The notes under the pieces: generated by a model | Seen by the model: only the letters and a program-made list of their open reading frames with translations | Database searches by the model: none | What the model was told of the DNA's origin: nothing | Made by a program: the position numbers and the translations under genes | NCBI RefSeq assembly: GCF_014647115.1 | Contig: NZ_BMOO01000005.1 | Span: 1 to 64,000 of the forward strand | Length of the DNA: 64,000 nucleotides | DNA from: Halarchaeum rubridurum | GTDB lineage: Archaea; Halobacteriota; Halobacteria; Halobacteriales; Halobacteriaceae | Reading direction: 5' to 3' | Shown here: positions 4,144 through 64,000 of the stretch, one piece after another | How the letters are laid out: every line of letters begins with the position of its first letter | Position numbering within the stretch: the stretch's first letter is position 1

Positions 4144-4194
4144 TATGGGTGAGTCGGGACGGCTCCCGGTTAGTGACTTCGGTCGCGCGCCGTC

Positions 4195-4402
4195 GCTCGC
4201 GGGTCGTCCCCGTTCCCCGCTCGCTACTCCGTGACACCTTCGGTGTCACGCTCCGCTCGCGCCTCACTGCGTTCAGCGCTCACGTTTCCGTGGGCCCTCG
4301 CTGTCGCTCGGCCCCACGCTCTGCTCGCGTGTCGCTCCCACAGGTCGCTCCCGCTCCCCGTTCGCGTGTTCGTGGGCCCTCGCTGTCGCTCGGCCCCACG
4401 CT
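4195..4402. repeat. Intergenic repeat block: two identical 32-base elements and a mini-hairpin
   Basis: This block fills most of the 299-base divergent space 4144-4442. Two identical 32-base copies lie at 4289-4320 and 4371-4402, each running CGTGGGCCC to CCCCACGCT. A perfect hairpin lies at 4231-4249 (GTGACACC, loop TTC, GGTGTCAC). CGCTACTC at 4222-4229 is the same connector as in the 2.4 and 29 kb blocks. Promoters for both flanking genes must lie around or inside it; I see no strong TATA box. Confidence 0.75.
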
Positions 4403-28048: not shown

Positions 28049-28148
28049 GGTCCCGCGTATTCGGCGGCCCTATTTCGCCGTTTCCCCTCCGGCGTCGGTT
28101 CGCCGCGTCGCCCCCATCGTTATGGGTCGCCTCCGCGTCCACGCCACC

Positions 28149-28922
28149 ATGACCGATTCCGTTCGGCTCGACGTCGACGACGCGGGCGTCGCGACGCTCA
28201 CCATCGACCGCCCGGACCGGCTGAACGCGCTCGACGGCGCGACGCTCGACGCGCTCTTGGCGGCGCTCGCGGACGCCGAGGCCGCGGACGCCCGCGCAGT
28301 CGTGCTCCGCGGGGCGGGCGACGACGCGTTCGCCGCGGGCGCGGACATCGCGGAGATGGCGGAGTACGGCCCCGCGGAGGCGCACGCCTACGCCGACCTC
28401 GGCCACGACGTCACGCGCGCCATCGAGACGTTCCCCGCGCCCGTCGTCGCCGCCATCGGCGGCTACGCCCTCGGCGGCGGCCTCGAACTCGCGCTCGCCT
28501 GCGACCTCCGCGTCGCCGCGGAGAGCGCCATCCTCGGGCAGACCGAGACGGACCTCGGCATCGTCCCGGGATGGGGCGGCACGCAGCGTCTCCCGCGGCT
28601 CGTCGGCGACGAGACGGCCCGCCGGCTCATCTACTTCGGCGACCGAATCGACGGGCAGGACGCCTACGACCTCGGCCTCGTCGGCGACCTCGTCGCGCAC
28701 GACGAGCTCGACGAGTACGTCGCGGACCTCGCCGCGGACCTCGCCGCGCGCCCGCGGTTCGCGCTCGCCGCCGCGAAGGAGGCGATCACGAAGAGCCACG
28801 AGACCGACCTCGGTGCGGGACTCGACTTCGAGCGGCGTACGTGGGCGTCGCTGTTCGGGACGCACGACCAGCGCGAGGGGATGGCGGCCTTCCTGGAGGA
28901 GCGAGAGCCGGCGTTCGAGTAG
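28149..28922 (+). CDS. Enoyl-CoA hydratase/isomerase family protein
   Basis: The 257-residue crotonase-fold protein hydrates or isomerises enoyl-CoA in fatty-acid or amino-acid breakdown. The oxyanion-hole AAGADI is at 62-67. GGYALGGGLELALACDL (104-120) supplies Glu113 and the QTETDLGIVPGWGG segment supplies Glu133; these are the two catalytic glutamates of true hydratases. Length fits the family. ATG 28149 (MTDSVRLDVDD) is chosen; an upstream in-frame ATG (MGRLRVHATM) at 28122 would add nine poorly conserved residues. Downstream lies repeat DNA. Confidence 0.87.
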   Translation: MTDSVRLDVDDAGVATLTIDRPDRLNALDGATLDALLAALADAEAADARAVVLRGAGDDAFAAGADIAEMAEYGPAEAHAYADLGHDVTRAIETFPAPVVAAIGGYALGGGLELALACDLRVAAESAILGQTETDLGIVPGWGGTQRLPRLVGDETARRLIYFGDRIDGQDAYDLGLVGDLVAHDELDEYVADLAADLAARPRFALAAAKEAITKSHETDLGAGLDFERRTWASLFGTHDQREGMAAFLEEREPAFE

Positions 28923-28923
28923 C

Positions 28924-29091
28924 GCGCGGCGGCTCCGCCGCCGCGGAGGAGTGAACGGTGAAACCGTGAGTAGCGTGGGGCCGAACGAATGTGAGGGCCC
29001 ACAGAAAGCGAGCGGGGAGGAACGACCCGCGAGTAGTGCGCGGCGGCAGAGCCGCCGCGGAGAAGCGAACGGTGAAACCGTGAGTAGCGTG
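28924..29091. repeat. Composite repeat: two 54-base hairpin modules around a GTGGGGCC element
   Basis: Two near-identical 54-base modules occupy 28924-28977 and 29038-29091. Each has a GC hairpin (28926-28941, and 29039-29059 with 9-base arms and loop AGA), then ACGGT-GAA-ACCGT (28955-28967 and 29069-29081), then GAGTAGCG. Differences fall mainly in the loop and connector. Between them, 28972-29004 is the reverse of the element found twice each at 2.4 and 4.3 kb. The block fills most of the 252-base space between the hydratase and DUF5789 genes. Confidence 0.78.
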
Positions 29092-29174
29092 ACCCACGAG
29101 CGGCGCGCGACGGCGTCGTCCGGCGTCGGCGAGTGCGACAAACAGTTAAGGAGCGGCCGACGGTATCCGAAGCC

Positions 29175-29432
29175 ATGACCGAACGGGTGAAACTCAAGGA
29201 CCTCGAAGACGCCCTCGAAGGGCTCCCGTACCCGCTCAGCAAGCAGAACGCGGTGGCGGAGGTCGAAGGGATCGTGCTCGTCTACGCCGACGGCGAGGAG
29301 ACCGCGGCGGACGTCGTCGAGCGCATCGAGGAGGAGGTGTTCGACGACCCCGCGTCGCTCGCCGCCTCGATTCGCAACAACCTCCCGACGGAGGCCGTCG
29401 GCGAACCCGGCCAGTCGGAGGGCGAGGGGTGA
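29175..29432 (+). CDS. DUF5789 family protein (short form)
   Basis: This 85-residue protein of the haloarchaeal DUF5789 family opens LKDLEDALEGLPYPLSKQNAV (split by family strands), has the central VYADGEETAADVVERI, and ends with the very conserved LPTEAVGEPGQSEGEG. It is a paralogue of the 120-residue protein at 8191. AGTTAAGG near 29147-29154 gives a plausible TATA box about 25 bases upstream. Function is unknown. Confidence 0.83.
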   Translation: MTERVKLKDLEDALEGLPYPLSKQNAVAEVEGIVLVYADGEETAADVVERIEEEVFDDPASLAASIRNNLPTEAVGEPGQSEGEG

Positions 29433-60528: not shown

Positions 60529-61580
60529 GCCGACCCGTCGACGACCCAGAGGTCGCCGAACAGTTCGTCCTGCTCCAGCGTCACGCGCCCCCGGTGGGCG
60601 AGAAAGAGCACCGCGAGGAACGACTCGACCCGCGAGTCCCCCGCGTCCGCGACCTCCGCGAACAGCACTTCCGCACGCCCGCGGCCGTACCGCGACGCGA
60701 GCGCGTCCTCGACGTCCTCGATGGTCGCCTCGATGTCCTCGCCGTGCGCGGTGTCCGTGACGTCCGCCGCCGTCGGCTCCTCCTCCGCGCGGAAGTCGTC
60801 GCCGCTCCGGTAGTCGAGTTCCTGCACGCCGCGCTGGAACCCCTGCGGGCTCTCCGAGGTGTCGTACGTTCGGGACTCCTTCCACCACGACCCCCGCTCG
60901 GCCTCGCGCAGCGAGCGCACGAGCTCGTCCAGCGTCTCCGGCGTCCCCCGCTGGGGTTTGCGTTCGAGGCGCCGGTCCATCTCGTCCTCCAGCGCCGCGA
61001 TGGGGTCGACGCCCGGCGCGTCCTCGGGAAGTTCGTCCATCCCGGGCTCCCAGTCGTCCCACCCCGTCGGCTCCTCTCCCTCCGCCGCGTCCTCCTCGGG
61101 TTCGTCCGGTTCGAGGAGGGCGTCGGACTTCATCCGCAACAGCACCGAGGCGTAGAAGAGCGCGCGCCCCGACGTCCGCAGGTCCGCCTCGTCGAGCTTG
61201 TCGAGGAAGGCGTCGGTCACGTCCACGATGTCGATGTCCCACGGCTCTATCTCGCCCTCTTTCGCCAGCTGGACGAGCAACTCGACCGGCTCGACCTCGT
61301 CGTCCGCCGCGTCGCCGTCCTCGGGTTCGGGGTCGTCCGGCCCCTCGCCGAGCGAGAGGTCGCCCCCGCCCGACGACTCGTGCCCCGAGAGCGTGAACGC
61401 GTCCTCCGGGTTGCCGCCGTCGGCGCGGACGCGCGCGTCGTCCGCGGGGGTGTCGCCCGCGGACTCGCGTCGCGGTTCCTCCTCCCCCCGCGGCTCGCTA
61501 TCCTCGGCGTCCCCTCGCGGGTCGCGTCGCTCCCCGCTCGCGTTCTCCGAGACGCCTCTCCGAGGCGTCTCGCTAGTCAT
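60525..61580 (-). CDS. scpA: Segregation and condensation protein A (kleisin)
   Basis: The 351-residue kleisin bridges SMC heads. The canonical start is near residue 95 (VEPVELLVQLAKEGEIEPWDIDIVDV), with FLDKLDEADLRTSGRALFYA next and a C-terminal winged helix ending SFLAVLFLAHRGRVTLEQDELF. The preceding 94 residues are a low-complexity Glu/Asp/Arg tail, of which about the first 21 are encoded by hairpin-repeat DNA. ATG 61580 overlaps the smc stop by 8 bases (GGATGACTAG), so the two are coupled. No scpB is visible in the window. Confidence 0.9.
   Translation of the reverse strand: MTSETPRRGVSENASGERRDPRGDAEDSEPRGEEEPRRESAGDTPADDARVRADGGNPEDAFTLSGHESSGGGDLSLGEGPDDPEPEDGDAADDEVEPVELLVQLAKEGEIEPWDIDIVDVTDAFLDKLDEADLRTSGRALFYASVLLRMKSDALLEPDEPEEDAAEGEEPTGWDDWEPGMDELPEDAPGVDPIAALEDEMDRRLERKPQRGTPETLDELVRSLREAERGSWWKESRTYDTSESPQGFQRGVQELDYRSGDDFRAEEEPTAADVTDTAHGEDIEATIEDVEDALASRYGRGRAEVLFAEVADAGDSRVESFLAVLFLAHRGRVTLEQDELFGDLWVVDGSA
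61518..61572. repeat. Dispersed repeat and 11-base-arm hairpin at the start of scpA
   Basis: Bases 61518-61543 match the intergenic block at 2321-2346 with one mismatch. Next to it, 61548-61572 is a perfect hairpin with 11-base arms and loop TCC. Both lie within codons 3-21 of scpA. The repeat therefore contributes the first residues of the protein. Confidence 0.75.
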
Positions 61581-64000
61581 CCGCGGGGGCCTCCTCCCCG
61601 CCGGTCAGGTCGATGCCCGTCACGGCGCTGACGTTGTCGCCCTGCATCGTCACGCCGATGGCGCGCTCGGAGCGCTCGAGCATCGCCGAGCGGTGGCTGA
61701 CGACGACGAACTGCGCGTCCGCCGCGAGTTCGTCCACGAGCTCGCCGACGCGTTCGGCGTTCACGGCGTCGAGGAACGCGTCCACCTCGTCGAGCGCGTA
61801 GAACGGCGCGGGGTTGTGCCGCTGGATGGCGAAGATGAACGCCAGCGCGGTGAGCGACTTCTCGCCGCCGCTCATCGCGTCGAGGCGCTGGACGGGCTTG
61901 TCCGCCGGCTGGGCCTTCATCGTCAGGCCGCCCTCGAAGGGGTCGTCCTCGTCCTCCAGGACGAGTTCGCCCGACCCCGCGGAGAGCCGCGAGAAGATGC
62001 GCTGGAAGTGCCCGTCGATGGCCTCGTAGGCGTCCATGAACGTCTCGCGCTTCTGGGACTCGTAGCTCTCGATGCGCTCCCGGATGCCCTCGGCCTCCGC
62101 TTTGAGCGTCTCGCGTTTCTCCTCCAGGTCGTCGAGGTCCGCCTCGACCTCGTCGTACTCCTCGATAGCGAGCATGTTCACGGGCTCTAAGGCCTCCATC
62201 CGGCGTTCGAGGCGCGCCACCGTCTCCTCCACCTCGTCGATGTCCGGAATCTCGTCGGCCTCGTAGTCGCCGACGGCGTCTTCGAGCTCCGAAATCTCCT
62301 CGCGGAGGCGCTCGGCGGCGCTCCGCAGGCTCTCGACGCGGCTCTCGACCGACTCGACCCGCTGGGCCTGCTCGTCGCGGACGCGCTGGGCCTCATCGAG
62401 GTCATCCTTGAGGGCCTCGCGCTCCGCCTTCAGGTCCGCGAGCTCCGCCTCCAACTCCTCGACTTCGGCCTCCTTCTCGGCGAGCGTCTCGCGCTTCGCC
62501 TCGATTTCCGCCTCGAACTCCTCGATCCGCTCCGCCTGCTCGGCCTTCGTGTTCTGGGCCTCCTCGACGTCGTCGTGGAGGTCCTCGATCTCGTTCTCGG
62601 CGTACTGGTGTTGGAGCTGGAGGTCGTTGAGCTCGCCGTCGAGCTCCGCGCGCCGGTCGTCGAGCTCGTCGACCTCGGTCTCCAGCTCCTCGCGCTTCGC
62701 GGTGAGCTCGGGAATCTCCGAATCCGCGAGCTCAGCCTCCAGCTCCTCGATTTCGGCCTCGTGCTCGTCGATCTCGTCCTCCCGTTCGGCGATCTCCTCG
62801 TCGAGTTCGCCCATGCGTTCGTCCACGTCCGCGCGCTCGGATTCGAGCTCGGCGAGGCGCTCGGCGAGCTCCTCGATCCGCGCTTCCGTGTCCTCTTTTT
62901 CGGCCTCCACGCGCTCGATGTCGGTTTCGAGCGAGCGGACGGTGTCGAGGGCGTCCGACTTCCGGTCGCGCGCGCCGTCGAGGCGCTCCTCGATCTCTTG
63001 GACGTCGTCGCGTAGCGACTGGCGTTCGTCCTCGAGGTCGTTTATCTTCGCCGCGACGCGTTCGAGTTGGCCCTGCCCGGACTTCGAGAAGGAGTAGCGC
63101 GACCCCGAGCGGCTGCCGCCTGTCATCGCGCCGCTCTTCTCGACGAGCTCGCCGTCGAGCGTCACGAGCCGATAGTCGCCCATCAGGTCGCGCGCCGTCT
63201 CCATGTCCTCGACGACGAGCGTGTCGCCCAGGACGTACGAGAAGACGCCCGCGTACTGGCGGTCGAAGTCCACGAGGTTGAACGCGAAGTCCACGACCCC
63301 CGGGACGTCGGGCGTGCGTCCGAGCGAGCGCTCGTGCATCTCCGTCAGCGGCAGGAACGTCGCGCGCCCCGCGTTGCGCGACTTCAGGTACTCGATGCAG
63401 GACTGCCCGACGCCGTCGTCGTCCACGACGACGTGCGCCAGCCGCCCGCCCGCGGCCGTCTCCGCGGCCGTCGCGTAGCGCCCCTCGACGCCGCCGAGCT
63501 GCGCGACGGTGCCGTGGACGCCCTCCTTCCCGCTGTTCAGGACCGTCGAGACCGCCCGCCCGTACGAGGAGTCGCCGGACTGCTCGGCGTTCGCCTCCAG
63601 GCGCGCGTACTCCTCGCGGGCCTCCTGCAGGTCGTCCTCGACGTCGTTCAGGTCGGCCTGTCGCTCCTGCTTCTGGGCCTTGAGGTCCGCGACGACCTCC
63701 TCGATCTGTGCCTCGTTCGCCTCCGCCTTCTCGAGTTCGTCGTGCAGGTCGTCGAGGCGCTGGTCGAACTCGGGGAGCTCCTCGCGGGCGGCCTCCAGGT
63801 CGGCCTCCGCCTCGCTCACCTCGTTCGAGCGTCGTCGCGCCTCGTCGAGCAGGCGGTCCTTCTCGCGCTGGAGGTCGTTGCGCGCCGACTTCGCCGCCTC
63901 CATTTCCTCCTTCTTCGACTCCAGGTCGGCCTTCAGCTCGTCGAACTCGGTGTCGACGTCCTCGATTGCCGCCTCGACGTCGTCGATTTCGGTCTCCAGC
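61573..64000 (-). CDS. smc: Chromosome segregation protein SMC (C-terminal 808 residues, 5' end outside)
   Basis: The visible part comprises one coiled-coil arm, the hinge and the other arm with the C-terminal ATPase head. The hinge contains SYGRAVSTVLNSGKEGVHGT, GRLAHVVVDDDGVGQSC and the TGGSRSGSRYSFSK turn. Head motifs are LDAMSGGEKSLTALAFIFA (signature) and PFYALDEVDAFLDAVN (Walker B). The arms are long runs of Glu/Lys/Leu/Ala heptads (about 62.0-63.0 and beyond 63.6 kb). The partner kleisin follows with an 8-base overlap. The N-terminal head with Walker A is beyond the window edge. Confidence 0.96.
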   Translation of the reverse strand, partial: LETEIDDVEAAIEDVDTEFDELKADLESKKEEMEAAKSARNDLQREKDRLLDEARRRSNEVSEAEADLEAAREELPEFDQRLDDLHDELEKAEANEAQIEEVVADLKAQKQERQADLNDVEDDLQEAREEYARLEANAEQSGDSSYGRAVSTVLNSGKEGVHGTVAQLGGVEGRYATAAETAAGGRLAHVVVDDDGVGQSCIEYLKSRNAGRATFLPLTEMHERSLGRTPDVPGVVDFAFNLVDFDRQYAGVFSYVLGDTLVVEDMETARDLMGDYRLVTLDGELVEKSGAMTGGSRSGSRYSFSKSGQGQLERVAAKINDLEDERQSLRDDVQEIEERLDGARDRKSDALDTVRSLETDIERVEAEKEDTEARIEELAERLAELESERADVDERMGELDEEIAEREDEIDEHEAEIEELEAELADSEIPELTAKREELETEVDELDDRRAELDGELNDLQLQHQYAENEIEDLHDDVEEAQNTKAEQAERIEEFEAEIEAKRETLAEKEAEVEELEAELADLKAEREALKDDLDEAQRVRDEQAQRVESVESRVESLRSAAERLREEISELEDAVGDYEADEIPDIDEVEETVARLERRMEALEPVNMLAIEEYDEVEADLDDLEEKRETLKAEAEGIRERIESYESQKRETFMDAYEAIDGHFQRIFSRLSAGSGELVLEDEDDPFEGGLTMKAQPADKPVQRLDAMSGGEKSLTALAFIFAIQRHNPAPFYALDEVDAFLDAVNAERVGELVDELAADAQFVVVSHRSAMLERSERAIGVTMQGDNVSAVTGIDLTGGEEAPADD

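Follow-up and report, generated by a model that had tools for sequence, protein, structure and literature searches.

To our knowledge, nearly all that has been established about REP-like elements comes from bacteria, where RAYT transposases are taken as their movers. Bacterial GTAG REPs are palindromes of 20 to 40 bp with an unpaired GTAG foot at one end, present in more than 100 and even hundreds of copies per genome. They are located downstream of genes, for which their ends frequently supply the TAG stop codon, and they also occur within ORFs (PMC3733652). RAYT-like classes have been reported absent from Archaea (PMC6006769). RPEs (about 150 bp, forming whole-element rickettsial families) are maintained as in-frame inserts in protein genes that are unrelated to one another, and MITEs, small noncoding multicopy elements with terminal inverted repeats common to the copies and with target-site duplications, are recorded for Halobacterium and Haloquadratum (PMC10969869). 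Palindromic repeats of Archaea have been counted in general (RepRanger; PMC12306157). Template switching in replication, a mutational process rather than an element, makes and mends perfect stems in one step (PMC8794818). A literature search, with subscription literature outside its scope, found no published account of a two-hairpin family in haloarchaea, and an earlier description may exist.

Here, we describe a hairpin array within 64,000 nt of Halarchaeum rubridurum DNA (the window) that is apparently an undescribed archaeal counterpart of the bacterial REPs and the Rickettsia palindromic elements. It occupies positions 28920 to 29089 and is composed of three tandem units, each consisting of a hairpin X, a linker, and a hairpin Y. 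The site is a 252-nt spacer between an enoyl-CoA hydratase (ECH) gene, with its stop codon at 28920 to 28922, and a DUF5789 gene starting at 29175. With a probability of roughly two-thirds, we interpret the array as three copies of a small, non-autonomous palindromic haloarchaeal element that spread by insertion and local tandem duplication. Genome searches were performed with R1, a covariance model of Y. The features of the window are as follows.

28122 to 28922, + strand: upstream gene, ECH (gene call; Pfam ECH_1, E = 9e-65)
28925 to 28945, + strand: unit 1, hairpin X1, CGCGGCGGC-TCC-GCCGCCGCG
28953 to 28970, + strand: unit 1, hairpin Y1, short form GAACGGTGAAACCGTGAG, followed by the connector TAGCG (28971 to 28975)
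28975 to 29002, + strand: unit 2, hairpin X2, GTGGGGCC-GAACGAATGTGA-GGGCCCAC, with one G-G mismatch
29010 to 29033, + strand: unit 2, hairpin Y2 (module D), GAGCGGG-GAGGAACGA-CCCGCGAG, followed by the connector TAGTG (29034 to 29038); R1 match at 29007 to 29038, 48.8 bits, E = 1.9e-8
29039 to 29059, + strand: unit 3, hairpin X3, CGCGGCGGC-AGA-GCCGCCGCG
29067 to 29084, + strand: unit 3, hairpin Y3, short form GAACGGTGAAACCGTGAG, followed by the connector TAGCG (29085 to 29089)
29175 to 29432, + strand: downstream gene, DUF5789 family (Pfam PF19102, E = 3e-12)
2312 to 2460, - strand: second array of the same family (R1 match at 2312 to 2345)
4191 to 4402, - strand: third array of the same family, in the spacer between divergent genes (R1 matches at 4191 to 4225 and 4333 to 4366)
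61509 to 61572, - strand: fourth array, X (CGAGACGCCTC-GGA-GAGGCGTCTCG) plus Y (R1 match at 61509 to 61542)

The array starts with the TAG stop codon of the ECH gene, which lies within the first GAGTAGCG. The first-pass annotation had described two nearly identical 54-base modules flanking an inverted element. Both parts were recovered, the modules as a 62-nt direct repeat (28916 to 28977 and 29030 to 29091, 90% identical, 114 nt from start to start) and the inverted GTGGGGCC...GGCCCAC element between them as X2; the flanking plan itself gave way to three tandem X-linker-Y units, which fit better and in which the 54-base modules correspond to units 1 and 3. The joint occurrence of connector and element at three loci also held (2.3 to 2.46, 4.19 to 4.40, and 28.9 to 29.1 kb). 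The connectors, which had been thought fixed, are instead degenerate (approximately GAGYRRYG), and an exact GTGAGTAGCG was found 11 times genome-wide versus 11 times for the reversed control. Perfect stems with 3-base loops are present but not throughout, since a G-G mismatch is conserved in the GTGGGGCC hairpin, whose loop is 11 to 13 nt long. The view that this region exceeds chance GC richness was borne out by the folding of a 185-nt stretch (z = -6.25 on the + strand and -5.74 on the - strand; 0 of 200 shuffles equally good) and by 26 BLAST matches to the array in its own genome (E ≤ 1e-3). No Rfam family matched positions 28700 to 29300 above the gathering score; a chance hit to c-di-GMP-II reached 17.4 bits (gathering score, 40). 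The fourth array immediately follows the TAG stop codon of the gene at 61573 to 63999, and a diverged copy lies at the equivalent place in a sister species.

Across loci, a unit measures about 50 to 55 nt, with a locus-specific X, a linker of 4 to 8 nt, and a near-constant Y. The core pattern of Y is GARCGG...CCGYGAG; the full form reads GARCGGG, a loop of GAGGNACGA or GAGCGNNNGCGA, and CCCGYGAG, besides the short form seen in units 1 and 3. Y2 is the part of the array that is conserved across haloarchaea. Nearly every locus has its own X stem (58 distinct among 67), and the loop is either a tri-loop (e.g., GAA, GGA, or TTC) or of the longer type GARCGnnnGYGA. Beside Y, a perfect X with 6 bp or more was found in 54 of 104 modules, compared to 5 of 104 after shuffling. 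In the GTGGGGCC hairpin, which has many copies besides X2, the central G-G mismatch is kept across genera, and the outer stem pairs vary. A T-D-T model, in which the X arm would always equal target sequence repeated after Y, was not adopted; shared words of at least 7 nt occurred in 37% of cases versus 17% of controls, a modest excess that makes it a hypothesis only.

The element is multicopy and restricted in range. Where the first-pass annotation had set about ten copies as the minimum for a repeat, 43 Y modules of the unit-2 type were counted in the genome (R1, E ≤ 0.01; short Y forms left out of this count). At E ≤ 1e-4, R1 matched 15 of 158 sampled genomes of the phylum, all of the same order as the window, and the highest count of the sample (34) was that of the window's own genome. 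Y modules are present in several haloarchaeal families, and none was found outside haloarchaea among the sampled phylum members. BLAST searches with the array returned matches in 48 of 98 relatives.

Pairs of filled and empty sites were found within genes. The cleanest one lies in a gene that we take to be of the haem-binding PitA/HemQ kind. In the two species G052 and G071, this gene carries an exact, in-frame, 54-nt X-linker-Y insert between GCCCGCGCGGG and CGAGGAG, with the 8-bp direct repeat CGCGCGGG on both flanks. The orthologues of four congeners (G038, G077, G062, and G084) are uninterrupted and read GCCCGCGCGGGCGAGGAG or a synonymous equivalent at this site, and the flanking protein is unaltered on both sides. 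From this sequence comparison we conclude that copies arise by insertion, because an exact insert with an 8-bp repeat is found in a gene whose four congener orthologues are empty. The Y core at insert sites is the same as elsewhere, which indicates that a fixed sequence is carried to new places. The origin of X is not revealed here, since the empty site is itself a perfect palindrome. A FAD oxidoreductase provided a further case, with a 48-nt insert and an 11-bp direct repeat in G078; its linker holds different hairpins in G109 and G106 and none in G105 and G030. In three species (loci L257, L261, and L262), X with differing second hairpins was observed in the same FAD oxidoreductase linker, which marks a hot spot within a protein gene. 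Direct repeats of 8 and 11 to 13 bp were seen at several intragenic sites; they are clear at only about half of the sites, weaker at the others, and in part overlap the GCGAG with which the element itself ends, and they may therefore reflect either target duplication or microhomology.

The arrays also turn over between close relatives and appear to grow in place. The ECH spacer spans 252 nt here versus 81 nt in a sister species. Where the window has three units, the sister species G002 has one X and a remnant, G001 and G003 carry other hairpins, and genus g2 has no array. Over 314 kb compared between C5 and G002, several spacers differ by whole arrays. At some loci, the tandem unit takes in the end of the gene itself, as in the GTCGCGCTGAGTAACGCG unit of L069 and a similar unit of L060, which points to array growth by local duplication. 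The same holds for L055 and L056 (about positions 1440 to 1710), where an array directly behind a tRNA gene, apparently tRNA-Leu, has a unit that repeats the tRNA 3' end (GGTTCGAATCCTGTCCCGCGCA). These units, together with template switching as a documented maker of perfect stems (PMC8794818), would also suit immobile arrays produced by local replication slippage and palindrome-driven template switching in GC-rich spacers, with their likeness due to base composition. We regard such a purely local origin as quite improbable. The Y module GCGAGCGGGGAGGAACGACCCGCGAG, which includes a 9-nt loop, is identical in unrelated genes and families, and Y forms an exact insert at a site that is conserved in other respects; local processes do not relocate a fixed sequence. 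For Y, a local origin is thus largely refuted by the exact 54-nt insert, while for array growth and for X it is likely.

The distribution of the element relative to genes is strongly biased. Of the 31 arrays in its own genome, about 24 are situated downstream of a gene whose strand they share, and X of these arrays mostly begins 0 to 3 nt past the stop codon; the gene calls came from a simple codon-usage script, and single contexts may be wrong. The stop codons TAG, TAA, and TGA precede arrays in 13, 8, and 5 cases, respectively, versus 50, 28, and 115 for other genes (Fisher's exact test, p = 1.1e-4; 2 of the 26 array-gene assignments are ambiguous). A TAG or TAA within 5 nt 5' of X was found in 21 of 67 cases compared to 2 of 67 at a control position, and the TAG foot is missing from two-thirds of the X hairpins. 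Exceptions in this genome lie on the promoter side of divergent genes or within predicted genes. In other haloarchaea, Y was likewise found within genes, where it lies in frame in conserved ones, in promoter-side spacers, and after a tRNA gene; Y modules within genes showed 16 sense versus 1 antisense orientations, usually reading (A)SGEERPAS. Such a strong sense bias is unexpected for a freely inserting palindrome, unless selection acted later. A set of antisense arrays (L032, L035, L038, L041, L043, L046, L048, L306, and L308) places Y at a near-constant 73 to 83 nt from the neighbor's start codon, with X beginning just upstream of the expected promoter site. Long perfect stems in general are enriched about twofold in tandem and convergent spacers genome-wide and show no enrichment in divergent spacers. 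A rule of a hairpin after every haloarchaeal stop codon was rejected, given that stems of at least 7 bp were found for 9 of 193 genes versus 2 expected, few of them from arrays.

The stems covary strongly. Tolerance of G-U but not of A-C pairs is expected for RNA. The outer pair of Y is G-C in 99, A-T in 51, G-T in 26, and A-C in 22 cases (Fisher p ~ 1e-11). For the inner pair of long-loop X, the counts are 64 G-C, 16 A-T, 6 G-T, and 2 A-C (p ~ 7e-11); a smaller alignment agrees. These pair counts show that pairing is kept in both X and Y stems; compensatory changes are abundant, in contrast to the decay without compensation that the first-pass annotation had considered. The ratio of G-T to A-C in the Y outer pair (26:22) lacks the RNA-type asymmetry, while X stems with one non-Watson-Crick pair (about 11 G-T versus 2 A-C) lean toward RNA; the copies are not independent, and neither ratio is decisive. 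Since template switching makes and mends perfect stems (PMC8794818), covariation is possible without RNA function, and template-switch repair could be its source. Of the two natures proposed at first, a non-autonomous repeat was upheld by dozens of copies, an order-wide range, and the exact pair of empty and filled sites, while an RNA element was not established.

We give little probability to the arrays being functional 3' untranslated region structures under selection, that is, hairpin stacks after the stop codon that would block 3'-5' decay or aid termination. The sense arrays directly after stop codons, the folding of the + strand, and the G-T excess among the odd pairs of X are consistent with such a role. 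So is a report from Haloferax volcanii, in which hairpins were located upstream of 503 transcript ends and one of these hairpins gave 59% termination in vivo (PMC7237163). Arguing against it, arrays in orthologous spacers differ or are missing between sister species, Y also occurs within coding genes and promoter-side spacers of other species, G-T and A-C are similarly frequent in the Y outer pair, and both strands fold nearly equally well.

A search of the genome for a mobilizer returned no RAYT (class 2 TnpA-Y1); the two Y1_Tnp matches are both short and IS200-like, and one has an internal stop. Outside the window, a 2-kb insertion that is missing in the sister species (G000:C5:71594-73638) surrounds a transposase gene of the IS200 type that contains an internal TAG. 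There were 0 matches to the reverse transcriptase family PF00078 (RVT_1) in the genome, and a group II intron-like or retron-like retroelement was rejected on this basis. Like GTAG REPs, the element consists of short palindromes in 3' intergenic space that often give the TAG stop, form tandem arrays, and sometimes lie inside ORFs. It differs in combining within each unit two unlike hairpins, of which one changes at nearly every locus, in being archaeal with the TAG foot in only about a third of cases and no RAYT in the genome, and in numbering tens of copies. It shares with RPEs a palindromic structure and in-frame positions in unrelated protein genes; unlike them, it is only about 50 bp long (inserts of 48 to 54 nt), is found in haloarchaea only, and joins its units in arrays mostly at gene ends. 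It resembles MITEs in being small, noncoding, and multicopy and in having direct repeats at some insertion sites, albeit ones that overlap the element end; the diversity of X stems leaves no terminal inverted repeats common to the copies, and no cognate transposase was found in the searches. Template-switch hairpins (PMC8794818) account for perfect, changing stems and multibase compensatory change without selection but leave the fixed Y sequence unexplained. By analogy, the element works like REPs and RPEs, and we file it as neither because it departs from them in RAYT, copy number, or size. True membership in the GTAG-REP/RAYT group, with an undetected archaeal RAYT-like Y1 transposase recognizing the TAG foot of X, appears highly improbable. 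The gene-end position, the TAG stop, and the occurrence in ORFs are shared with bacterial GTAG REPs (PMC3733652), and TAG or TAA is enriched next to X, but most X hairpins have no such foot, no archaeal RAYT class has been reported (PMC6006769), and both Y1 proteins of the genome look like IS200 TnpA.

We therefore favor a non-autonomous element whose copies spread by insertion, as seen at one precise pair of empty and filled sites, and whose arrays probably grow locally by tandem duplication, as read from the repeats. Y, or X together with Y, is probably moved as a single-stranded DNA hairpin by an enzyme acting in trans. Copies may survive where they are least harmful, either between a stop codon and the next promoter or as in-frame protein linkers. 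The X stems, which vary by locus and stay paired, most likely do so via replication template switching that makes or repairs palindromes. In an unlikely variant, only Y would be transmitted, and X would be newly made by fold-back copying of host sequence at the landing site; each copy of this self-palindromizing mobile element would then be one fixed and one locus-templated hairpin.

For annotation, the arrays account for spurious ORFs rich in Ser, Glu, and Arg and for additional protein linkers in haloarchaea. They also supply many sequenced cases in which to ask whether perfect covarying stems reflect RNA function or template-switch repair only, which bears on the reading of covariation as evidence. 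A widespread archaeal family that lacks RAYT and pairs a constant hairpin with a locus-specific one would imply another route by which such elements spread.
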